Of a stretch of DNA of 64,000 nt, positions 14 through 16,394 are shown one piece after another. Each line of letters begins with the position of its first letter. Position 1 is the first letter of the stretch. A model generated the notes under the pieces. It did not search any database and had not been told where the DNA came from. It saw only the letters and a list, made by a program, of their open reading frames with translations. Source of the stretch: Ruegeria pomeroyi (GTDB lineage Bacteria > Pseudomonadota > Alphaproteobacteria > Rhodobacterales > Rhodobacteraceae); the NCBI RefSeq assembly GCF_021405525.1, contig NZ_JAGQAG010000001.1, positions 2,666,001-2,730,000 on the forward strand, written 5' to 3'. Both the position numbers and the translations under genes were made by a program.

Positions 14-1315
14 ATGATCCAGCCCGGCCAGGTCCATCGCGATGTCTATATCAGCGATGCGGTCTATCAGCTGGAAATGCGCCACCTTTTCACCAATGCC
101 TGGGTCTTTGTCGGGCATGACAGCCAGACCCCGAACAAGGGCGATTACATCACCACCCAGGTCGGCGACCAGCCGGTGATCATGGTGCGCCACAGCGATG
201 GCGAGGTGAAGGTTCTTTACAACCGCTGCCCGCACAAGGGCACCAAGATCGCCATCGACCGGGCCGGCAACACCGGCAAGTTCTTTCGCTGCCCCTACCA
301 CGCCTGGAGCTTCAAGACCGACGGTTGCCTGCTCGCCATCCCGCTGAAGAAGGGATACGAGGGCACCGGCCTGGCCGAGTCGCAGAACGGCAAGGGGATG
401 CAGGCGGTGGGTGCGGTGCACAACTATCGCGGCTTTGTCTTTGCCCGGCTGGCCGAGGAGGGCATCGGGTTCGACGAATTCTTTGGCGGCTCGCTCAGTT
501 CCATCGACAACATGGTCGACCGCGCGCCTGAAGGCCGCGTGGAAATTTCCGGCCCGCCGCTGCGCTACATGCACAAGTGCAACTGGAAGATGCTGGTCGA
601 GAACCAGACCGACACCTGCCATCCTATGGTGGCGCATGAAAGCTCGGCCGGGACGGCGGTGAAGATCTATGAGCAGATGGGCAATCCCGAACCGCGCCCG
701 CCCGCGATGCAGATCATCGCGCCGTTCATGAGCCCTTATGAGTTCTTCGAGGATATGGGCATCCGCACCTGGCCCAATGGCCACGGCCATACCGGCGTCA
801 ACATGTCGATCCATTCGAACTATGACGCCATCCCCGGCTATTTCGAGGCCATGGTCGAGAGCTACGGCGAGGAGCGCGCCAAGGCGATACTGGACGAGAA
901 CCGGCACAATACCGTCTATTTCCCCAATGTCATGGTCAAGGCGCCGCTGACGCAGCTGCGCAACTTCATTCCGCTGGGGGCGGACCGCACGCTGGTGGAA
1001 AGCTATGTCTACCGGCTGGTCGGCGCGCCCGAGCAGCTGACCGCCATGTCTGCCATGTATAACCGGATGATCAACGCCCCCACTTCGATCGTGGGTCATG
1101 ACGATCTGGAGATGTATGAACGCGCGCAGGAGGGGCTGCATGCCGAGGGCATGCAATGGGTCGATATCCGGCGGTTGCACACCGGGACAGAGGATTTCGA
1201 GACCGAAGCGGTCGAAAACGGCACCACCGAACGGCAGATGCGCAACCAGTTCCACGCCTGGGCCAAGTTCATGACCATGTCCATGGAGGACGCCGCTGGC
1301 GTCGCCGCCCAATGA
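14..1315 (+). CDS. Rieske non-heme iron ring-hydroxylating dioxygenase, alpha subunit (5' end possibly cut)
   Basis: Catalytic subunit of an aromatic-ring dioxygenase. The Rieske [2Fe-2S] ligands are visible as C72-P-H74 and C93-P-Y-H96. The mononuclear iron site lies in NWKMLVEN...DTCH-x4-H at residues 190-208, with bridging D200 and ligands H203 and H208. At 433 residues it has normal family length. The reading frame stays open to the left window edge and the ATG at 14 has no well-placed ribosome site, so a slightly earlier start is possible. Its stop overlaps the next short gene region, and the beta subunit follows, so the pair should form an alpha/beta oligomer. No reductase or ferredoxin gene is in the window. 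Substrate is inferred from the operon as an indolic or aryl acetic acid, not seen directly. Confidence 0.9.
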   Translation: MIQPGQVHRDVYISDAVYQLEMRHLFTNAWVFVGHDSQTPNKGDYITTQVGDQPVIMVRHSDGEVKVLYNRCPHKGTKIAIDRAGNTGKFFRCPYHAWSFKTDGCLLAIPLKKGYEGTGLAESQNGKGMQAVGAVHNYRGFVFARLAEEGIGFDEFFGGSLSSIDNMVDRAPEGRVEISGPPLRYMHKCNWKMLVENQTDTCHPMVAHESSAGTAVKIYEQMGNPEPRPPAMQIIAPFMSPYEFFEDMGIRTWPNGHGHTGVNMSIHSNYDAIPGYFEAMVESYGEERAKAILDENRHNTVYFPNVMVKAPLTQLRNFIPLGADRTLVESYVYRLVGAPEQLTAMSAMYNRMINAPTSIVGHDDLEMYERAQEGLHAEGMQWVDIRRLHTGTEDFETEAVENGTTERQMRNQFHAWAKFMTMSMEDAAGVAAQ

Positions 1316-1332
1316 TCGAGGGGAATGCAGCA

Positions 1333-1809
1333 ATGATCACCCGCGACGACGTGATCGACTTCATCTATGCCGAAACCCGGATGCTGGACGAAGGCCGCTA
1401 CTCCGAATGGCTCGACCTCTGGCTGCCTGATGCGGTCTACTGGATGCCGCTCGACTACAAGCAGGCCGATCCGGTCAACGCCACCTCGTTCCTTTACGAG
1501 GACAATTTCATGCTGCGCCTCAGGGTCGAGCGGCTGAATGGCGAGCGGACATTCTCGCAGAAACCGAAATCGCGCTGCAACCACGTGATCCAGCGGCCCT
1601 TTGTCGATGTGTTCGACCCCGAGGCGGGCAAGTTCCAGACCGTGACCAACATGCATTATGTCGAGACGCGGCTGGACGAACAGCAGCTTTTGGCACTGAC
1701 CGTGACCCATGACCTGGCACTGGTGGACGGCGCATTCCGCATCGCGGGCAAGAAGGTCGAGTTGCTCAATTGCGACGCCGCCTTTGGCAATATCCAGCTG
1801 CTGCCGTGA
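1333..1809 (+). CDS. Aromatic-ring-hydroxylating dioxygenase, beta subunit
   Basis: Small 158-residue protein of the SnoaL/NTF2-like cone fold typical of dioxygenase beta subunits (RDDVIDFIYAETRMLDEGRY at the N-terminus; IAGKKVELLNCD near the C-terminus). Its role is structural, completing the oligomer with the alpha subunit. The ATG at 1333 is chosen because GAGGGG lies 9 bases upstream; an earlier in-frame ATG at 1312 overlaps the alpha stop codon as ATGA and cannot be excluded. The stop overlaps the GTG of the next gene, so translation is probably coupled. Confidence 0.88.
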   Translation: MITRDDVIDFIYAETRMLDEGRYSEWLDLWLPDAVYWMPLDYKQADPVNATSFLYEDNFMLRLRVERLNGERTFSQKPKSRCNHVIQRPFVDVFDPEAGKFQTVTNMHYVETRLDEQQLLALTVTHDLALVDGAFRIAGKKVELLNCDAAFGNIQLLP

Positions 1810-3419
1810 GCGCCGAGACGGTTTACGCCGCCATCGCGGCCACGGCGGCACGCTGGCCGGACCGCCCGCTGCTTGACGTGCTGCCCGGCACGGCGGCGGC
1901 CTATGACATCGCGGCCGGGCCGGTCAGCTATGGCGCCTTCCTTGCGCGCGTCGATGCGCGGGCCGAGGCGCTGGAACAGGCGGGCTATGGCGCGGGGGTG
2001 CGGGTGGCCGTGTTGCTCGAAAACCGGCCCGTGTTCTTCGAGCTCTTTGCCGCGCTCAACCGCATCGGCGCCTCGATCGTGCCGATCAACCCCGACCTGC
2101 GCGCCGCCGAACTGGAATACCTGATCGGCCATGCACAACCGGCGCTGATCGTCGCCCTGCCCGCCCGTGCCGAAGAACTGCGCGCGGCAGCCTTGGCGGC
2201 GGGCGTTACCGCCCCGGTCATCGCGGCCGGGGACGCCCCGCCCCCACCCCGCGCCGAGGCGACCGTGACCGAGCAGCGCACAGGCGAAGCGCGCGAGGCG
2301 GCGCTGCTCTATACCTCTGGCACCACCGGCAACCCCAAGGGCTGCGTGCTGCCCAATGCCTATTTCCTGCTGGCCGGGCGCTGGTATGCCGATCTGGGCG
2401 GGGTCGCCTCGCTGACCGAAAGGGGCGAGCGGATGATCACGCCCCTGCCGATCTTTCACATGAATGCCATGGCCTATTCCTTCATGGCGATGGTTACCGT
2501 GGGCGGCTGCCTGATCGCGCTCGACCGGTTCCACCCGTCCAGCTGGTGGGCTGATGTGGCCGAGGCGCGCGCCACCTGCCTGCATTACCTGGGCGTCATG
2601 CCCTCGATCCTGATGTCCTTGCCCGAGGGACCGCAGGACCGCGCCCATCAGGTGCGCTTTGGCTTTGGCGCGGGCATCGACCCGAAATTGCAGGCCGGGT
2701 TCGAGGCGCGGTTCGGCTTTCCCCTGATCGAGGCCTGGGCGATGACCGAAACCGGCGCGGGCGCGGTGATCGCCGCGCAGACGCATGACCGGCTGATCGG
2801 CCAATCCTGTCTGGGCCGGGCCGAAGGCTGGGTCGCGGCCCGCGTGGTCACCGATACCGGCCAGGACGCCGCCCCGGACGAGCCCGGCGAACTCCTCGTC
2901 CGCAATGCCGGACCCGACCCGCGCTACGGCTTCTTCTCGCATTACGACAAGAACCCTGAGGCCACCGCCGATGCCTGGGAAGGCGGCTGGTTCCACACCG
3001 GCGACATCGTGCGCCGCGACGCGCAGGGCCGGTTCTTCTTCGTCGACCGCAAGAAGAACGTGATCCGCCGCTCGGGCGAGAATATCGCCGCGGTCGAGGT
3101 GGAAAGCGTACTGATGCGCCACCCGTCCATCCGCGCGGCGGGCGTGGCCGCCGTGCCCGACCCGATACGCGGGGACGAGGTGTTCGCCTGCCTGCGCGTC
3201 GATGCCCCCTCGCCCGATCTAGCCCATCAGATTGCCCAATGGGCGCTGACCCAGATGGCCTATTACAAGGTGCCGGGCTATATTGCCTTTGTGGACAACC
3301 TGCCGATGACCCCCACCCAGAAGATCCAGCGCAAGGCGCTGAAGGAGATGGCCGAGGCGCTGCTCTCGGATCCGGCCACGGTGACGCTGACCCATCTCAA
3401 GAAACGGCAGGTGGCGTGA
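1806..3419 (+). CDS. AMP-forming acyl-CoA ligase (ANL superfamily)
   Basis: Activates a carboxylic acid with ATP and CoA. The P-loop YTSGTTGNPKG begins at residue 169. The motifs GWFHTGDIVRRD, DRKKNVIRRSGENI and the catalytic lysine in QKIQRKALK follow in normal order. Length is 537 residues from the GTG at 1806, which shares GTGA with the stop of the beta subunit; longer readings from an ATG at 1770 would run through that gene's end. In context the enzyme should thioesterify the acid produced by the dioxygenase, ahead of carbon-carbon cleavage. Specificity cannot be read from sequence. Confidence 0.9.
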   Translation: MSAETVYAAIAATAARWPDRPLLDVLPGTAAAYDIAAGPVSYGAFLARVDARAEALEQAGYGAGVRVAVLLENRPVFFELFAALNRIGASIVPINPDLRAAELEYLIGHAQPALIVALPARAEELRAAALAAGVTAPVIAAGDAPPPPRAEATVTEQRTGEAREAALLYTSGTTGNPKGCVLPNAYFLLAGRWYADLGGVASLTERGERMITPLPIFHMNAMAYSFMAMVTVGGCLIALDRFHPSSWWADVAEARATCLHYLGVMPSILMSLPEGPQDRAHQVRFGFGAGIDPKLQAGFEARFGFPLIEAWAMTETGAGAVIAAQTHDRLIGQSCLGRAEGWVAARVVTDTGQDAAPDEPGELLVRNAGPDPRYGFFSHYDKNPEATADAWEGGWFHTGDIVRRDAQGRFFFVDRKKNVIRRSGENIAAVEVESVLMRHPSIRAAGVAAVPDPIRGDEVFACLRVDAPSPDLAHQIAQWALTQMAYYKVPGYIAFVDNLPMTPTQKIQRKALKEMAEALLSDPATVTLTHLKKRQVA

Positions 3420-4594
3420 TGGCGCGGCCTACCAGCTATGAGGGCGTGGCGCTGGTGGCGCCTTTCTCGACGCCCTATCAGCGCTATTCCATCGACACCG
3501 CACATCACTGGATCGCCACCGCCCTGCGCGGCTCCTTGCGGGCGGCGGGGCTGAAACCCGGCGATCTGGACGGGTTCGAGGTCGCGTCCTTCACGCTCTT
3601 CCCCGATACCGCCGTGGGGCTGACCCAGCATCTGGGCCTCTGCCCGCGCTGGCTCGACCATATCCCGATGGGCGGCGCCTCGGCCGGTGTGGCCCTACGC
3701 CGCGCCGCGCGCGCTGTGCAGGCGGGTGATGCCGAAATCATCGCCTGCGTGGCGGGCGACACCAACCATATCGACAGTTTCCGGCAACTCCTGTCCAGCT
3801 TCTCGCGCTTTGCCATGGATGCGAGCTATCCCTATGGCTATGGCGGCCCGAATGCGAGCTTTGCCCTTCTTACCGACCGCTACATGACCGAATACGGCGC
3901 GACGCGCGAAGATTTCGGGCGCCTCTGCGTGGCCCAGCGCGCCAATGCGCTGAAAAACCCGAACGCGGTGATGAAGAAACCCCTGACGATGGAGCAATAC
4001 CTGGGTGCCCGCCCCATCGCCGACCCGATTGCGCTCTTTGACTGCGTGATGCCCTGCGCCGGGGCCGAGGCGTTTCTGGTCATGTCCGAGGATCGGGCGC
4101 GGGCGCTGAACCTGCCCTATGCCCGGCTGGCAGGGGCCATCGAGCGGCACAATGCCCATGCCGACGACCCGATCCAGCTGCGCGGCGGCTGGACGATGGA
4201 TGTGGATGTGCTCTGGGATCAGGCCGGAATGGCACCGCAGGAGATGGATCTGGTGCAGACCTATGACGACTATCCGGTGATTTCGATGATGCAGATCGAG
4301 GATCTGGGCTTCTGCGCCAAGGGCGAGGCCCCTGCGTTTCTGCGCGACAAGGATCTGACCGTTGCGGGCGACTTCCCGCACAATACTTCGGGCGGGCAGC
4401 TTTCCGGCGGTCAGGCCGGGGCAGCGGGCGGCTTCATCGGCATGGTCGAGGCAATCCGCCAGGTCACCGGACAGGCGGGCGGCACGCAGGTGCCGGGCGC
4501 GGAACACGCGCTGGTGTCGGGCTTTGGCATGATCAACTTCGACCGCGGCCTCTGTTCCAGCGCCGCGGTCCTCACGACCGGAGCGCGCGCATGA
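3419..4594 (+). CDS. Thiolase-fold protein of the SCP-x / Ltp2-DitF type, probable CoA-dependent retro-aldolase
   Basis: A 391-residue thiolase-fold protein. At the position of the thiolase nucleophilic cysteine it has MGGASAGVAL, without Cys, as in the Ltp2/DitF branch whose studied members catalyse retro-aldol cleavage of beta-hydroxyacyl-CoA and need a DUF35 partner. The C-terminal GGQLSGGQAGAAGG loop is present. The ATG at 3419 overlaps the ligase stop (TGATG), and the next gene, which carries a DUF35 domain, starts inside its last codons. The pairing with DUF35 supports the aldolase reading; a true acetyl-CoA acyltransferase is less likely without the cysteine. Confidence 0.75.
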   Translation: MARPTSYEGVALVAPFSTPYQRYSIDTAHHWIATALRGSLRAAGLKPGDLDGFEVASFTLFPDTAVGLTQHLGLCPRWLDHIPMGGASAGVALRRAARAVQAGDAEIIACVAGDTNHIDSFRQLLSSFSRFAMDASYPYGYGGPNASFALLTDRYMTEYGATREDFGRLCVAQRANALKNPNAVMKKPLTMEQYLGARPIADPIALFDCVMPCAGAEAFLVMSEDRARALNLPYARLAGAIERHNAHADDPIQLRGGWTMDVDVLWDQAGMAPQEMDLVQTYDDYPVISMMQIEDLGFCAKGEAPAFLRDKDLTVAGDFPHNTSGGQLSGGQAGAAGGFIGMVEAIRQVTGQAGGTQVPGAEHALVSGFGMINFDRGLCSSAAVLTTGARA

Positions 4595-5847
4595 CCCATC
4601 CCCTGTCCCCGCCGCCCAAGAAAAACCCGCAGAAACGCTCGGTCTCGCCGACGCGCCCGCCCGAAGTGCGGTCGCGCGCCGCGCTCCACCTGACCGCCGC
4701 CGCCGCCGAGGGGCGGTTTGCCCTGCAACGCTGCGCCGACTGCGGCAAGGTGCAATACCCGCCGCGCGATGCCTGTTCGGCCTGCCTGAGCACAGACCTG
4801 CCATGGCAGGACATGGCGCCGGGCGGCACACTGATCGCCGAGACCACGGTGCAGACCTCGCCCCGGCTTTACTTCCGCGAGCGGATGCCATGGCGCGCAG
4901 GCACCGTGCAGCTCGATGCCGGTCCCACTGTGCTGGCCCATATCCATGGCGACGTAAAACGCCACGCCCGCGTGCGTGTCACCGTCCGACTTGATCAGGC
5001 AGGCCAGGGCGTGCTGGTCGCCCTGCCCGAAACCGACACCCCGAACATGGAGGACGATCCGCTGATGCGTGCCCTCTCTGCCGATCCCAAACACCGCCGC
5101 GTGCTGATCACCGATGCCCGCAGCGCACAAGCCCCCGCGCTGGCCCGCGCCCTGCAAAAGGCGGGTGCGGCGATCATCTTTGCAGGCGAGCCGGAAAGCT
5201 GGCGACCCTATCCGCAACGCGCCGAACTGGAGGCTTTGGGTGTCCAGATCCTGCCGATGGACGTGACCGACACCGCATCGGTGCAGAAACTGGCGGGCGA
5301 GATCGGCGGCAAGACCGACATCCTGATCAACACCGCCCGGTTCCTGCGCCCCGGCGGGGTGCTGGACCGGGGCGATACCGGCTTTGCCCGCGACGAACTG
5401 GAGGTGAATTACCTTGGCCTGATGCGCCTGGCGCAGGCATTCGGTCCGGCCATGTGCGCGCGTGCCTCCGACGGCGTGAATGCCGCCGCCGCCTGGGTCA
5501 ACCTGCTCAGCGTCGGCGCGCTGAGTAATGCGCGCCCTTTCGGCGCCTATTCCGCCAGCCAGGCGGGGGCCTATTCCCTCAGCCAGTCGCTGCGCGCCGA
5601 ATTCCGGCCCTCGGGGCTCAGGGTGATGAACGTGTTCTTTGGCCCCACTGAAGAGGACGACTGGTACCAGCCACTGCCACCACCGCGCGTGACAGCCTCC
5701 GCCTTGGCCCGCTCGGTCGTCGACGGGCTGCAACGGGGCTTGGAAGACGTCTGGTGCGGCGACATCGCCCAGGACCTGCGCGACCGTTTTCGCCGCGACC
5801 CCAAGGTGCTGGAACGCGAAATGACGCTGGGAGGAGAAGGCGCATGA
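4591..5847 (+). CDS. DUF35 (rubredoxin-like zinc ribbon + OB fold) fused to an SDR-like domain
   Basis: A 418-residue fusion. The zinc ribbon uses C48, C51, C62 and C65, followed by an OB-fold to about residue 150; DUF35 domains dock on thiolase-fold aldolases. Residues about 170-400 have a short-chain dehydrogenase layout, but the nucleotide loop reads VLITDARSAQAPALARAL, without the TGxxxGxG glycines, and the catalytic YxxxK reads Y320-S-A-S-Q324, so the lysine is missing. The SDR part may therefore be non-catalytic, acting as scaffold or substrate channel. Start overlaps the preceding stop and the end overlaps the next ATG (ATGA). I do not know a characterised protein with this exact architecture. 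Confidence 0.8.
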   Translation: MTHPLSPPPKKNPQKRSVSPTRPPEVRSRAALHLTAAAAEGRFALQRCADCGKVQYPPRDACSACLSTDLPWQDMAPGGTLIAETTVQTSPRLYFRERMPWRAGTVQLDAGPTVLAHIHGDVKRHARVRVTVRLDQAGQGVLVALPETDTPNMEDDPLMRALSADPKHRRVLITDARSAQAPALARALQKAGAAIIFAGEPESWRPYPQRAELEALGVQILPMDVTDTASVQKLAGEIGGKTDILINTARFLRPGGVLDRGDTGFARDELEVNYLGLMRLAQAFGPAMCARASDGVNAAAAWVNLLSVGALSNARPFGAYSASQAGAYSLSQSLRAEFRPSGLRVMNVFFGPTEEDDWYQPLPPPRVTASALARSVVDGLQRGLEDVWCGDIAQDLRDRFRRDPKVLEREMTLGGEGA

Positions 5848-6620
5848 GCACTCTGGCCAATCTTGCCACCCGCATCGCCAGCGGAGAGATCCGGGTCGTC
5901 GACCTGACCCACACGCTCGACCCCGATTTCCCGGTCATCATCCTGCCGCCCGAATTCGGCCAATGCGCCCGCTTTCGCATGGAGGAAATCAGCGCCTATG
6001 ACCATCGCGGCCCGGCGTGGAAATGGCACAATATCTCGATGTCCGAACACACTGGCACCCATTTCGACGCGCCAGCGCACTGGATCTCGGGCCGCGACCT
6101 GCCGCGCGCGGCGGTGGACGAGATCGACCCGGCCGATTTCATCGGCCCGGTCTGTGTCATCGACTGTTCTCAAGGTGCCGCGCAGGACGAAGATTTCGAA
6201 CTGACCGTACCCCTGATCGAAGGCTGGGAGGCCGCCCATGGCCGCATCCCCGCCGGGGCCTGGGTGCTGATGCGCACCGACTGGTCGAAACGGCGCGGTG
6301 CCGCATACCTCAACATGCGCGAGGACGGACCGCATTCGCCGGGGCCGACGCCCGAGGCCATCCGCTTTCTGATCGACCAGCGCGACATTCGCGGGTTCGG
6401 CGTCGAAACCGTGGGCACCGATGCCGGTCAGGGCAGCCATTATACCCCGCCCTATCCGGCGCATTACTACCTGCACGGCGCGGGGCGCTTTGGGCTGCAA
6501 TGCCTGTCGGATCTCGACCAGTTGCCTGCAACCGGCGCGGTGCTGATCGCCGCCCCCCTCAAGATCAAGAACGGTACCGGCAGCCCGCTCAGGGTACTGG
6601 CGCTGGTGGAGGAGACATGA
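5844..6620 (+). CDS. Cyclase-family metal hydrolase, isatin-hydrolase-like
   Basis: A 258-residue member of the cyclase / kynurenine formamidase family. The metal motif HTGTHFDAPAHW is intact, and the flanks WKWHNISMSE, GPHSPGPTP, GTDAGQG and the C-terminal APLKI-x-NGTGSP resemble, from memory, isatin hydrolase of Labrenzia (Mn-dependent opening of isatin to isatinate). The ATG at 5844 has GAGGAG 8 bases upstream and overlaps the previous stop; longer readings are unlikely. In this operon it would open the lactam formed after side-chain removal. Kynurenine formamidase is the main alternative, but no tryptophan 2,3-dioxygenase or kynureninase gene is nearby. Confidence 0.8.
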   Translation: MSTLANLATRIASGEIRVVDLTHTLDPDFPVIILPPEFGQCARFRMEEISAYDHRGPAWKWHNISMSEHTGTHFDAPAHWISGRDLPRAAVDEIDPADFIGPVCVIDCSQGAAQDEDFELTVPLIEGWEAAHGRIPAGAWVLMRTDWSKRRGAAYLNMREDGPHSPGPTPEAIRFLIDQRDIRGFGVETVGTDAGQGSHYTPPYPAHYYLHGAGRFGLQCLSDLDQLPATGAVLIAAPLKIKNGTGSPLRVLALVEET

Positions 6621-7339
6621 CCCATACCGCCGTCATCACTGGGGGCAACAAGGGGATCGGCGCCGATCTGGCGCAGGCGCTCCTGGCGCGCGACTACACG
6701 GTCGTGTCGATCTCGCGCCGCGCGCCCGAGGTCTCCCACCCACACCTCCACTCGGTCGAGGCCGATCTGTTGGACGGCCAGGCGGTGGCCGAAGCCGCCG
6801 CTGAAGTCGCGACCAACCACGAGGTCACTCACCTGATCCACAATGCGGGCCTGATCTGGCCCAACCTGATCGAAGCGGCCGAACCCTCGGACATCACCGG
6901 GCTGGCGCAACTGCATCTGGGGTCCGCCCTGACCCTGCTCAAGGCGTTTCTGCCCGCGATGAAGGCGCGCCAGTTCGGGCGGGTGATGTTCAACGGCTCA
7001 CGCGCCGCCCTTGGCGCACCCACACGCACCGCCTATGGCGCCACCAAGGCCGGCATGATCGGCATGGCGCGCACCTGGGCGCTGGAGCTGGCCCCCCATG
7101 GCATCACCGTCAACGTGGTGGCGCCCGGCCCGATCCTGACCGACAATTTCTGGGGTATCGTGGAAAAGGACAGCCCCCAGCAAGAGGCGCTGGCCAAGCG
7201 CATTCCCATGGGTCGCCTTGGCCGGGTCGACGACGTCACCCGCGCCTTTCTGTTCTTTTGCGATCCCGAAAACAGCTTTGTCACCGGGCAGACCCTTTAT
7301 GTCTGCGGCGGCGCCAGTGTCGGATCGCTCCAGATCTGA
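6617..7339 (+). CDS. Short-chain dehydrogenase/reductase
   Basis: Classical 240-residue SDR with complete motifs: TGGNKGIG for NAD(P) near the N-terminus, HNAG, a catalytic Ser in FNGSRAA, and YGATK. The ATG at 6617 overlaps the stop of the hydrolase gene and has GGAGGAG just upstream. As the last gene of the operon it probably oxidises or reduces an intermediate, for example a hydroxylated indole. It is an intact enzyme, unlike the SDR-like half of the fusion two genes upstream. Confidence 0.85.
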   Translation: MTHTAVITGGNKGIGADLAQALLARDYTVVSISRRAPEVSHPHLHSVEADLLDGQAVAEAAAEVATNHEVTHLIHNAGLIWPNLIEAAEPSDITGLAQLHLGSALTLLKAFLPAMKARQFGRVMFNGSRAALGAPTRTAYGATKAGMIGMARTWALELAPHGITVNVVAPGPILTDNFWGIVEKDSPQQEALAKRIPMGRLGRVDDVTRAFLFFCDPENSFVTGQTLYVCGGASVGSLQI

Positions 7340-14172: not shown

Positions 14173-14934
14173 TCAGACCTTGGGGTCGGGGTTCACCGTA
14201 TGGCCATCGACCGCTATCACCTGCCCCGACACCAGCCGCGCCGCGTCAGAGCCCAGAAACACCGCCATGTTGGCGATGTCCGCCGCTTCGACGAAGCGGC
14301 CCATCGAGGTGCCCGAGGCGTAGCCCGCATAGACCTGATCGCGGGTCATGCCCTTGGCCGCTGCCTCGCGCGCCAGCACACCCTCCATCCGCGGTCCTTC
14401 GACCGAACCGGGACAGATCACGTTGCAGCGGACCCCGTGCGGGCCCAGTTCCATTGCCAGCGTCTTGGCCAGGCCGATCACCCCCCATTTCGCCGCCGCA
14501 TAGGGCCCGCGATAGGGAAAACCGTATTGCCCGGCGGTGGAAGAGGTGATGACGATACTGCCCGCGCCCTGCCGTTTCAGCAGCGGGACGGCGTATTTGG
14601 CACATAGAAACGCACCGTCGAGATTGACCGCGATGCAGGAGCGCCAGCCGTCGAGCGGCATATCCTCGACCAGTGCGGTCGGCCCGGCGATGCCCGCATT
14701 GGAACAGAGCGTATCAAGCCCGCCCCAGTCGGCCTCGATGTCGGCAAAGAGCGCCGCAACCGAGGCCTCATCCGCCACATCGACCACACTCTGCCGCCAG
14801 TGGGCGGGACAGGCGGCCAGCGCCGCCTTGTCCACATCCGCCACCCAGACCCGCGCCCCCGCCGCGTCAAAGGCCTCGGCCATGGCGCGGCCGATGCCGC
14901 CGGCACCAGCGGTGATCAGAACGCGCGCGCTCAT
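14173..14934 (-). CDS. Short-chain dehydrogenase in the L-carnitine operon
   Basis: A 253-residue classical SDR: TAGAGGIG cofactor loop, SNAG, catalytic Ser in ITSSTAG and YAAAK. The ATG at 14934 overlaps the stop of the upstream carnitine dehydrogenase gene (ATGA), so it belongs to that operon. Likely roles are D-carnitine oxidation, which would feed the same 3-dehydrocarnitine intermediate, or interconversion of the acetoacetate released by the cleavage enzyme with 3-hydroxybutyrate. The sequence alone does not decide. Confidence 0.85.
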   Translation of the reverse strand: MSARVLITAGAGGIGRAMAEAFDAAGARVWVADVDKAALAACPAHWRQSVVDVADEASVAALFADIEADWGGLDTLCSNAGIAGPTALVEDMPLDGWRSCIAVNLDGAFLCAKYAVPLLKRQGAGSIVITSSTAGQYGFPYRGPYAAAKWGVIGLAKTLAMELGPHGVRCNVICPGSVEGPRMEGVLAREAAAKGMTRDQVYAGYASGTSMGRFVEAADIANMAVFLGSDAARLVSGQVIAVDGHTVNPDPKV

Positions 14935-16394
14935 GCCGGTTTCCGGATCGCGCTGCCCGCGCCTTCGGGGTATGGCAGGCCCGCCTGCGCCTCTGCGATG
15001 CGGGCCATGGCGGCCTCGATCTCGGACGAAGGGGCGCAGGGTTTGCGGGTTTCCAGGCTCACATGCAGAAGGAAGCTCTCGCCGGTGGCCAAGAGCGTGT
15101 CGCCCTCGTACATGCGATGGAACAGGTGCAGCTTCTTGCCCTGCCCCAGCAGCATCTGGGTCTCGACCCGGATCCGCGCGCCTGCGTGGGTCTCGTCCAG
15201 ATGGCGGATATGGGTCTCGGCGGTGAAATAGCTGCCGCCATTGGCGATATAGTCGGCATCGCAACCGATGATCTCCATGAACCGGTCGGTGGAATTGGCA
15301 AATGCTTCCAGATATTTCGACTCGGTCATGTGACCGTTGTAGTCGGTCCAGTCGAGCGGCACCGCGCGCGACAACGTCAGGATCGGCTGGCTCAGGTCGG
15401 CCCTATCCAGATCGGGCAGCGCCTTGGGTTTCAGCGCCGCGTCATGCGTGTTCAGCACCGCGCCCGCACCCCAGTTCTGCGCTTTCAGCGCCCGCATCAT
15501 GCCGACAAGGTTGTTGTCGCGGATGCGTTCCAGTTCGCGGATCGTATGGTGCCCCGATTGGGCATCCGACTGGCCCGCGATCAGGTCGACCAGCTCGTCG
15601 GTGAATTCGGGCACATCCATCAGCTTGGTCCAGGGCCAGCTGAGGCAGGGGCCGAACTGCGCCATGAAATGCTTCATCCCCGCCTCGCCGCCCGCGACGC
15701 GATAGGTCTCGAACAGGCCCATCTGCGCCCAGCGGATGCCAAAGCCCATGCGGATCGCCTCGTCGATCTCTTCGGTGGTGGCGATGCCGTCCTTGACCAA
15801 CCACAGCGCCTCGCGCCAGACGGCCTCCAGAAAGCGGTCGGCGATATGGGCGTCGATCTCCTTGCGCACATGCAGCGGGAACTGACCCAGTCCGCGCATG
15901 ATCTCCTTGGCGCGCTCGATCATCTCGGGGCTGTTTTCCGGCGTCGTCACCAGTTCGATCAGCGGCAGCAGGTAGACCGGGTTGAACGGGTGCGTCACCA
16001 CGATCTGACCGGGGCGCAGCGCGCCCTCCTGCAATTCGCTCGGCTTGAAGCCAGAGGTCGAGGAGCCAAGGATCGCATCCGGATCGCAGGCCTCCTGGAT
16101 CGAACGATAGACTTTGAGCTTGAGGTCCAGCCGCTCGGGCACGCTCTCCTGGATCCACGCGGCCCCTGCCACCGCCTCAGCCAGATCGGTGTGAAAGCTG
16201 AGCTTGCCCTCGGGCGGCAGCGGCATGTCGCTGAGACCGGGCAGCGAACGGCGGGCATTGGCCAGCACCTCGCCGATCTTGCGTTCGGCTTGCGGGTCGG
16301 GGTCGAACACCCGAACATCCCAGCCGTTGAGCAGAAAGCGCGCGGCCCAGCCGCCGCCGATCACGCCGCCACCGATGATTGCAGCCGTTGTCAT
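14931..16394 (-). CDS. lcdH: L-carnitine dehydrogenase fused to a betainyl-CoA thioesterase
   Basis: A 487-residue two-enzyme fusion. Residues 1-320 are a 3-hydroxyacyl-CoA dehydrogenase-type fold (GGGVIGGGWA NAD loop at residues 8-17; VTHPFNPVYLLPLIE). Residues about 335-465 are a hot-dog thioesterase (VPLDWTDYNGHMTESKYLEAF). This pairing is the known architecture of carnitine catabolism in rhizobia and relatives: L-carnitine to 3-dehydrocarnitine, and betainyl-CoA to glycine betaine. It lies between the beta-keto acid cleavage enzyme and an SDR on the same strand. Confidence 0.9.
   Translation of the reverse strand: MTTAAIIGGGVIGGGWAARFLLNGWDVRVFDPDPQAERKIGEVLANARRSLPGLSDMPLPPEGKLSFHTDLAEAVAGAAWIQESVPERLDLKLKVYRSIQEACDPDAILGSSTSGFKPSELQEGALRPGQIVVTHPFNPVYLLPLIELVTTPENSPEMIERAKEIMRGLGQFPLHVRKEIDAHIADRFLEAVWREALWLVKDGIATTEEIDEAIRMGFGIRWAQMGLFETYRVAGGEAGMKHFMAQFGPCLSWPWTKLMDVPEFTDELVDLIAGQSDAQSGHHTIRELERIRDNNLVGMMRALKAQNWGAGAVLNTHDAALKPKALPDLDRADLSQPILTLSRAVPLDWTDYNGHMTESKYLEAFANSTDRFMEIIGCDADYIANGGSYFTAETHIRHLDETHAGARIRVETQMLLGQGKKLHLFHRMYEGDTLLATGESFLLHVSLETRKPCAPSSEIEAAMARIAEAQAGLPYPEGAGSAIRKPA

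Follow-up and report, generated by a model that had tools for sequence, protein, structure and literature searches.

Gene content of the iad locus

The 64,000-nucleotide stretch of Ruegeria DNA analysed here (the window; contig NZ_JAGQAG010000001.1, positions 2,666,001 to 2,730,000) opens with a seven-gene locus that is iadDEFGHIJ, part of a pathway degrading the auxin indole-3-acetate (IAA). We are confident that the locus is the known iad auxin-degradation operon, here in a close Ruegeria relative, and IAA is very probably its substrate. An earlier note, made from the letters of the window, had placed a candidate operon for IAA at 14..7339, with seven plus-strand genes overlapping by 1-4 bases. 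Such overlaps occur at six of six junctions if the third gene starts at 1806, and Pfam results agree with the families that the note had assigned to the seven genes. Those seven genes are there, but the first gene of the operon, iadC, lies upstream and outside the window; it ends 22 bases ahead of the window start, 35 bases before iadD, and iadC to iadJ are all present together at the locus. The genes iadA and iadB (iorA and iorB) are sited in the same genome region (Table 1).

The IAA substrate, coenzyme A (CoA) ligase, isatin and isatinate named in the note agree with published iad work. Its statement that every chemical step has one gene in the window does not hold: the reductase lies outside, and for the conversion of isatinate to anthranilate the seven genes offer no candidate. 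Neither the iad operon as such nor IAA degradation by a roseobacter is new, because R. pomeroyi, itself a roseobacter, was among the strains grown in a study where every tested strain that carried a degradation locus degraded IAA (PMC9613470); the note had considered auxin use by a roseobacter notable.

For comparison we used 80 related loci from other genomes, the best 80 of 198 confirmed ones, picked by similarity to gene D alone. Their nearest named members are from Ruegeria sp. PrR005, XHP0148 and R. marina (97% IadD identity). Gene iadE was found in 79 of the 80 and gene J lies downstream of D in 71. At least one of G, H and I stands between D and J in 56 of these 71 loci; none does in the other 15, where J directly follows E (12 loci) or F (3), an arrangement that agrees with the role of IadJ in a 2025 preprint on Variovorax, namely a second oxidation after IadCDE (PMC12633357). 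Deletions of iadCDE, F, G, H, I and J each lowered anthranilate in the same work. In two betaproteobacterial loci, L082 and L084, CoA ligase F is 35% identical and G 63%, and for this reason a different ligase lineage probably took the place of F there. Plasmids of Agrobacterium pusense and Novosphingobium humi (L121, L122) carry G-H-I or F-G-H with no iadD match in the stretch, as if the lower module moves independently of the oxygenase.

IadD is 54% identical to Variovorax IadD and keeps the Rieske and Fe ligands. The note had suggested searching the alpha subunit against IadD-type dioxygenases, and the best matches in the PDB are indeed two Variovorax IadD sequences, at 544 (9o71) and 540 bits, the next family scoring 138. 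IadE is assigned from its family and its place; orthology is shown for IadD. Eight of the nine IAA-pocket residues named in PMC10374108 are identical in IadD, and L211 is replaced by Gln. The 80 related loci match the window at all nine positions, bar one gapped row at Tyr362, and thus position 211 is Gln in 80/80. The pocket is therefore not identical to that of Variovorax, which counts against an IAA substrate and could fit an operon acting on another aryl or heteroaryl acetate. We consider such a substrate very improbable and rejected it: the regulator IadR is 95% identical to an IAA-binding protein, R. pomeroyi, a reported IAA degrader, has the same Gln211 pocket in its megaplasmid operon, and the isatin hydrolase inside the operon suits an indole substrate.

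IAA would enter through the TRAP (tripartite ATP-independent periplasmic) transporter, and IadCDE would add one oxygen to the indole ring. The note had taken the Rieske enzyme for a dioxygenase on the way to dioxindole-3-acetate (DOAA); in Variovorax the enzyme is reported to be a monooxygenase, with IadJ completing the oxidation (PMC12633357). IadJ would do the same here; the three Gly of its Gly motif and its Ser, Tyr and Lys are kept in 71/71 sequences, and it thus has the catalytic motifs of a short-chain dehydrogenase/reductase (SDR). IadF would then form the CoA ester of DOAA, as the preprint also infers (PMC12633357); a literature search combining DOAA with a CoA ligase found nothing.

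The window's IadR is predicted to be the IAA-binding MarR repressor next to the operon. It equals MarR_3CDH of R. pomeroyi, which binds IAA with a dissociation constant (KD) of 0.237 uM (PMC9613470), at 145 of 153 aligned positions (95%), and the published IAA-carboxylate residues of MarR_73, S28 and R46, correspond to its S39 and R57, with an inferred numbering offset. The 67-base intergenic region between the MarR gene and iadC contains the palindrome ATATGATTTTTCATAT. It recurs within two mismatches in 45 of the 49 loci whose MarR gene and iadC are divergent and near enough to test, versus 1.1% of 980 single-base shuffles. Two further IadR-like sites have two mismatches each (0.13 expected in 16.1 kb), one upstream of the TRAP genes and the other at L004:1739-1754, flanked by an octopine-dehydrogenase-like gene and a second TRAP gene. 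The pattern was not found in the 64-kb window, where 0.38 sites are expected, so that its absence there says little. IAA-driven release of IadR is published for Variovorax, and here too IAA would free IadR from the putative operator before iadC.

Table 1. Features of the iad locus. Entries without prefix are window coordinates; L004 is the genome stretch reaching upstream of the window (L004 position minus 16000 = window coordinate).
Feature	Coordinates	Strand	Description
iadD	14-1315	+	Rieske oxygenase alpha subunit; Pfam Rieske and Ring_hydroxyl_A
iadE	1312-1809	+	Rieske oxygenase beta subunit; Ring_hydroxyl_B PF00866, 80 bits
iadF	1806-3419	+	AMP-forming acyl-CoA ligase; PF00501, 194 bits; GTG start assumed, TTG at 1770 also open
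iadG	3419-4594	+	thiolase-fold protein, proposed retro-aldolase; Thiolase_C_1
iadH	4591-5847	+	zf-ChsH2 and OB_ChsH2_C (DUF35), N-terminal, fused to a degenerate SDR (adh_short)
iadI	5844-6620	+	isatin hydrolase A; Cyclase PF04199
iadJ	6617-7339	+	SDR dehydrogenase, second oxidation step
iadC	L004:15052-15978	+	Rieske reductase; Fer2/NAD_binding_1
iadR	L004: about 14526-14984	-	MarR; divergent from iadC
Candidate IadR operator	L004:15013-15028		
TRAP transporter genes	L004:11535-14463	-	binding protein by DctP PF03480, others by reading
4HBT-type thioesterase	L004:11101-11532	+	beside the TRAP genes
Second MarR	L004:10444-10923	-	327 bits to 3cjn
iadA (iorA-like)	L004:8289-10439	-	
iadB (iorB-like)	L004:6748-8289	-	
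Asp/Glu racemase-like gene	L004:5874-6692	-	
Second TRAP solute-binding gene	L004:1849-2934	+	
Octopine-dehydrogenase-like gene	L004:619-1752	-	PF02317

The octopine-dehydrogenase-like, second TRAP and racemase-like genes each have relatives in 7 of the 80 iad stretches, and a racemase gene also stands behind G, H and I on the Agrobacterium pusense plasmid pR76. These genes possibly serve the use of an auxin conjugate or of another substrate under IadR control. Further along the window, a minus-strand frame (14931-16394) is presumably a carnitine-type dehydrogenase that ends in a thioesterase domain at its C terminus; the frame after it we take to be an SDR.

Proposed side-chain cleavage by IadG and IadH

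IadG is a thiolase-fold protein with a DUF35 partner. Its best PDB matches are 9myr, 4u4e and Ltp2 (6ok1), at 153-178 bits, and residues 36-136 of IadH align with the DUF35 protein 6ok1_B (26 bits). In Ltp2, Tyr294 and Tyr344 have catalytic roles; thiolases have a motif of their own, which was placed on IadG by eye. The equivalent of Tyr294 is Tyr in 61/61 IadG orthologs, within an invariant YDDYP. The protein has seven Cys and is not 'cysteine-less' as the earlier note put it, but none of them stands at motif positions 85-87 in any of the 61 orthologs (two have Cys at 88), and to that extent the description was apt.

IadH carries DUF35 fused to an SDR domain that has lost its catalytic residues. 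Its four zinc Cys are kept in 61 of 62 sequences, the remaining row being gapped. The SDR motifs used are YxxxK and TGxxxGxG. Of the first, Tyr is present in 9/62 and Lys in 2/62 (L082 and L084, with Phe for Tyr), the two together in none; in the nucleotide motif, D, E or N replaces the first Gly in 62/62. The Tyr-Lys pair is also missing from four more distant plasmid relatives, R. pomeroyi included, and thus from 66/66 in total.

Because IadH is a DUF35-SDR fusion lacking this pair throughout, IadG and IadH together appear to be a retro-aldolase that yields isatin in a redox-neutral reaction, possibly a new finding. In this retro-aldol step the two proteins would break the tertiary beta-hydroxyacyl-CoA down to isatin and acetyl-CoA, the SDR domain of IadH serving as a non-catalytic scaffold or binding domain. 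The step, which the earlier note had also proposed, rests on homology and lost active-site residues. Retro-aldol cleavage is the simpler chemistry, since the beta carbon of dioxindole-3-acetyl-CoA bears a tertiary hydroxyl and not a keto group. A literature search on retro-aldol reactions and DUF35 returned steroid or bile-acid papers only.

The next protein, IadI, matches isatin hydrolase LaIHA (5nnb) along its whole length at 501 bits. The metal motif (HxG[T/A]HxDxPxH) and WxW occur in 61/61 sequences and GLQC in 60/61, with one gap. LaIHA, which was crystallised with isatinate (PMC6117287), is letter for letter the product of gene I of the Roseibium aggregatum iad locus (L013, L117). We therefore favour isatin hydrolase over the broad amidase of the preprint (PMC12633357) as the likely function of IadI, which would hydrolyse isatin to isatinate, an activity published for its close homolog LaIHA. 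In the iad locus of Labrenzia sp. DG1229 the isatin hydrolase gene (L015:15777-16546) matches as two overlapping pieces in different frames, which would be a frameshift or a sequencing error.

The preprint gives the same locus a different chemistry, in which IadG is a ketothiolase, IadH an alcohol dehydrogenase, IadFGH remove the side chain reductively to give C8H7NO2, and IadI acts after that compound. In its favour, C8H7NO2 accumulates without iadI and in a strain expressing iadCDEFGH_JK2 (PMC12633357). If isatin is the first product, this compound has to be explained by a side reaction, which in the iadI mutant would be the reduction of isatin. Several protein features also weigh against the retro-aldol assignment. 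IadG has no Tyr at the equivalent of Ltp2 Tyr344 (alignment read by eye), and for this reason we do not class it with Ltp2. IadH has kept its SDR fold: its model (pLDDT 85.3, pTM 0.84) is nearest to 5u4s (TM-score 0.92 by target length), a structure crystallised with nicotinamide adenine dinucleotide phosphate (NADP), so that IadH may bind a cofactor; 5u4s itself is without the YxxxK Tyr in the alignment. Finally, the nearest proxies of Variovorax IadH, those of L082 and L084, retain the Lys.

The reductive chemistry is nevertheless unlikely in our assessment. It has to accommodate an IadH with the Tyr-Lys pair in 0/62 and 0/4 and a replaced first motif Gly in 62/62, an IadG that resembles Ltp2-type proteins with no Cys at positions 85-87, and a substrate with a tertiary alcohol at the beta carbon, where, on chemical reasoning, a thiolase finds no beta-keto group; moreover, gene I at the R. 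aggregatum locus encodes a characterised isatin hydrolase.

IadAB and putative isatin modules

The published iad pathway work, in the parts examined, names no enzyme for the conversion of isatinate to anthranilate, and a literature search that took in few subscription papers found no paper assigning IadAB to isatinate. IadA and IadB form two subunits with a thiamine pyrophosphate (TPP) enzyme domain. The corresponding genes, iorA and iorB, were labelled iadA and iadB and used as exclusive markers of iad-like loci by Conway 2022 (PMC9613470), and in B. japonicum IAA induced iorA 30.7-fold and iorB 7.6-fold (PMC3788728), presumably in the copy linked to iad.

We followed iorA through two genome samples, an order sample of 196 genomes and a phylum sample of 398, with a limit of E 1e-60 for isatin hydrolase in the former. 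The order sample has iadD in 18 genomes, iorA in 38, isatin hydrolase in 33 and NF006101, the salicylyl-CoA/2-aminobenzoyl-CoA-type monooxygenase-reductase family, in 88 (87 over the cut-off). All 18 genomes with iadD have iorA, versus 20/178 others, and so do 33/33 with isatin hydrolase, versus 5/163 others; 15 of these 33 are without iadD. NF006101 likewise occurs in 33/33 hydrolase genomes and 55/163 others. Judged by the closest iorA-hydrolase pair, the two genes are no more than 5 kb apart in 22 of these 33 genomes and no more than 15 kb apart in 29, and all 15 hydrolase genomes without iadD have iorA within 5 kb of the hydrolase. In the phylum sample iorA is present in 23/25 hydrolase genomes versus 6/373 others; when matched genomes shared with the order sample are left out, in 20 of 22, the two genes lying at most 5 kb apart in 13 of them and at most 30 kb apart in 18.

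These observations suggest that IadAB would take isatinate, a 2-oxoacid, as its relatives take aryl-2-oxoacids, possibly a new assignment. IadAB, encoded 5.6 kb upstream, would oxidatively decarboxylate isatinate to anthraniloyl-CoA, a role to which co-occurrence and linkage point. Anthraniloyl-CoA would then be hydrolysed to anthranilate or enter the 2-aminobenzoyl-CoA monooxygenase pathway. The genome of the window has its own NF006101 protein on contig C4 (1321 bits, cut-off 1078). The frame beside it reads like a tryptophan 2,3-dioxygenase. The 4HBT thioesterase, with close relatives (69-88%) in 11 of the 80 loci, may release anthranilate or indoleacetate from CoA.

Some results weigh against this assignment. 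Gene iorA occurs without isatin hydrolase, at the limit used, in 5 of 38 order genomes (G008, G052, G089, G142, G184) and 6 of 29 phylum genomes (G008, G214, G329, G379, G416, G444), its match being only 52-54% identical in G008, G052, G142, G329, G379 and G416, and 2 of the 25 phylum hydrolase genomes (G420, G503) are without iorA. In Variovorax the iadC-K2 fragment restored anthranilate (PMC12633357); by its name this fragment is without iadAB (iadA is gene 72 and the deletion spans genes 77-53; PMC9613470), which means that anthranilate can form there without IadAB. The co-occurrence p-values, which ignore shared ancestry, are also significant for a control gene, paaA (111 matches over the cut-off used, one weak match, in G087, being dropped). 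Among the 196 genomes paaA is associated with iorA (28/38 versus 83/158, p 0.013), isatin hydrolase (26/33 versus 85/163, p 0.0036), iadD (18/18 versus 93/178, p 2e-5) and NF006101 (64/88 versus 47/108, p 3e-5). Part of the iadD and NF006101 figures may thus reflect versatile genomes. Without the iadD genomes, however, iorA and paaA are not associated (10/20 versus 83/158, p 0.67), whereas hydrolase and iorA still are (15/15 versus 5/163), as are iorA and NF006101 (16/20 versus 54/158, p 1e-4). A mere large-genome effect was rejected because the hydrolase-iorA tie holds without iadD genomes and the paaA-iorA tie does not.

IadAB might instead be a genuine indolepyruvate oxidoreductase, converting indolepyruvate to indoleacetyl-CoA and thereby supplying the pathway from tryptophan, as the family name, the similarity to IOR_alpha and the thioesterase gene nearby would allow. 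The IOR_alpha score, however, is 269 bits, far below the curated equivalog cut-off of 651, and two further IOR-like frames, both fused (1174 and 1149 amino acids, 28% and 26% identity), exist in the genome. The tight iorA-hydrolase linkage in 15/15 genomes without iadD and the mixing of IorA from iad loci and isatin hydrolase B modules in one tree also speak against a tryptophan route, which we judge rather improbable and rejected on the fused frames elsewhere and the linkage without iadD.

The stand-alone modules were compared in 20 iorA regions, each from a different one of the 38 order genomes with iorA, mostly chosen for a nearby hydrolase or NF006101 and thus not random; G089 and G184 were included as cases without hydrolase. 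A second MarR gene is the nearest marked gene to iorA in 20/20. In 15 of the 20, a hydrolase 47-50% identical to that of the window adjoins MarR-iorA-iorB, with no match to D, E, G or H. That of L098 matches LaIHB (4j0n) at 528 bits, and in R. aggregatum the LaIHB gene (equal to 4j0n over the compared part) lies 2.1 kb from the only iorA match. A CrtI-like flavin adenine dinucleotide (FAD) oxidoreductase stands between hydrolase and MarR in three listed regions (L096, L098, L101), and L099, L107, L108 and L115 have no room for one. NF006101 lies within 12 kb of iorA in 8 of the 34 genomes with both and within 26 kb in 10. Larger sets occur in L101 (NF006101 type, Rid-like protein, hydrolase, MarR, iorAB) and in L114 (NF006101 type, enoyl-CoA hydratase, acyl-CoA-dehydrogenase-like, thioesterase-like, MarR, iorAB, F, G, H, I), the latter also with a benzoate-CoA-ligase-like gene just below its cut-off. 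In the IorA tree of 43 rows, iad and hydrolase-B rows interleave, well-supported branches forcing at least six changes of the iad label; the labels are still more clustered than shuffled ones, only 1 and 8 of 500 shuffles being as low. Across L096-L115 (e.g. L098:6064-12788), stand-alone isatin hydrolase B modules occur, some with CrtI/CrtO-like FAD oxidoreductases and frames that read like a peptide-type ABC transporter. In these modules auxin is apparently not the source of the isatin.

We put at somewhat better than even a joint reading in which IadAB is an isatinate (2-aminophenylglyoxylate):acceptor oxidoreductase, iorAB, hydrolase and second MarR form an isatin module that occurs across Pseudomonadota even where the auxin oxygenase is missing, and IadG is a redox-neutral retro-aldolase for which IadH, a pseudo-dehydrogenase, provides the scaffold. 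On this view the second MarR would respond to an intermediate of the module and not to IAA, provided that it is a member of IadR2, a group to which published iad pathway work, as far as available to us, assigns no ligand. Our assessment of this joint reading was lowered, and that of the reductive chemistry raised, because the nearest fold of IadH is NADP-bound.

Comparison with known systems

Auxin is exchanged between marine Rhodobacterales and phytoplankton, and the operon extends the known pathway within this marine group. The published pathway, in the parts seen, leaves gaps at the enzyme for isatinate to anthranilate, at IadH, called an alcohol dehydrogenase, and at the IadR2 ligand, and genome evidence gives each a testable assignment. 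The value added lies in two inferences, IadH as a pseudo-SDR and the isatinate role of IadAB. The iadC-K2 cassette, by its name leaving out iadAB, has already been moved into root bacteria (PMC12633357); if true, the proposed role of IadAB joins isatin catabolism directly to the 2-aminobenzoyl-CoA pathway.

The locus resembles the iad loci of Variovorax paradoxus CL14/CL014 and Bradyrhizobium (Conway 2022, PMC9613470; Jiang 2025 preprint, PMC12633357) in its iadCDEFGHIJ set, in an IadR gene adjoining the operon and in iorA/iorB nearby. It differs in having TRAP genes in place of the Variovorax ABC transporter with IadK2, in Gln instead of Leu at IadD position 211, and in the place of iorAB, which with its own MarR forms a separate unit on the other strand, whereas iadA comes first behind IadR in Conway's scheme (PMC9613470). 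Likeness to R. pomeroyi DSS-3 extends from IadR (MarR_3CDH) to the second MarR, with its match to 3cjn. The R. pomeroyi DSS-3 megaplasmid (L119, NC_006569.1:125921-151147) has a full annotated CDEFGHIJ operon like that of the window, with the same nine pocket residues in IadD, but its proteins are only 46-62% identical to the window's. A MarR_3CDH-like gene was not found on any Ruegeria plasmid record (E 1e-20); in R. pomeroyi MarR_3CDH must thus have another location, possibly next to a second operon.

Among characterised proteins, IadI shares HxGTHxDxPxH, WxW and GLQC with isatin hydrolase A of Roseibium (Labrenzia) aggregatum (5NNA/5NNB). IadAB is like indolepyruvate ferredoxin oxidoreductase (IOR) in its two subunits and TPP-enzyme domain, but scores far under the IOR_alpha cut-off and travels with isatin hydrolase. 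IadG/H resembles Ltp2-ChsH2 DUF35 (6OK1) and Sal-Shy, in which a thiolase-fold protein without the catalytic Cys is paired with DUF35 fused to another domain. In IadH, however, the fused domain is a degenerate SDR and not MaoC, IadG departs from Ltp2 at position 344, and the substrate would be an oxindole.

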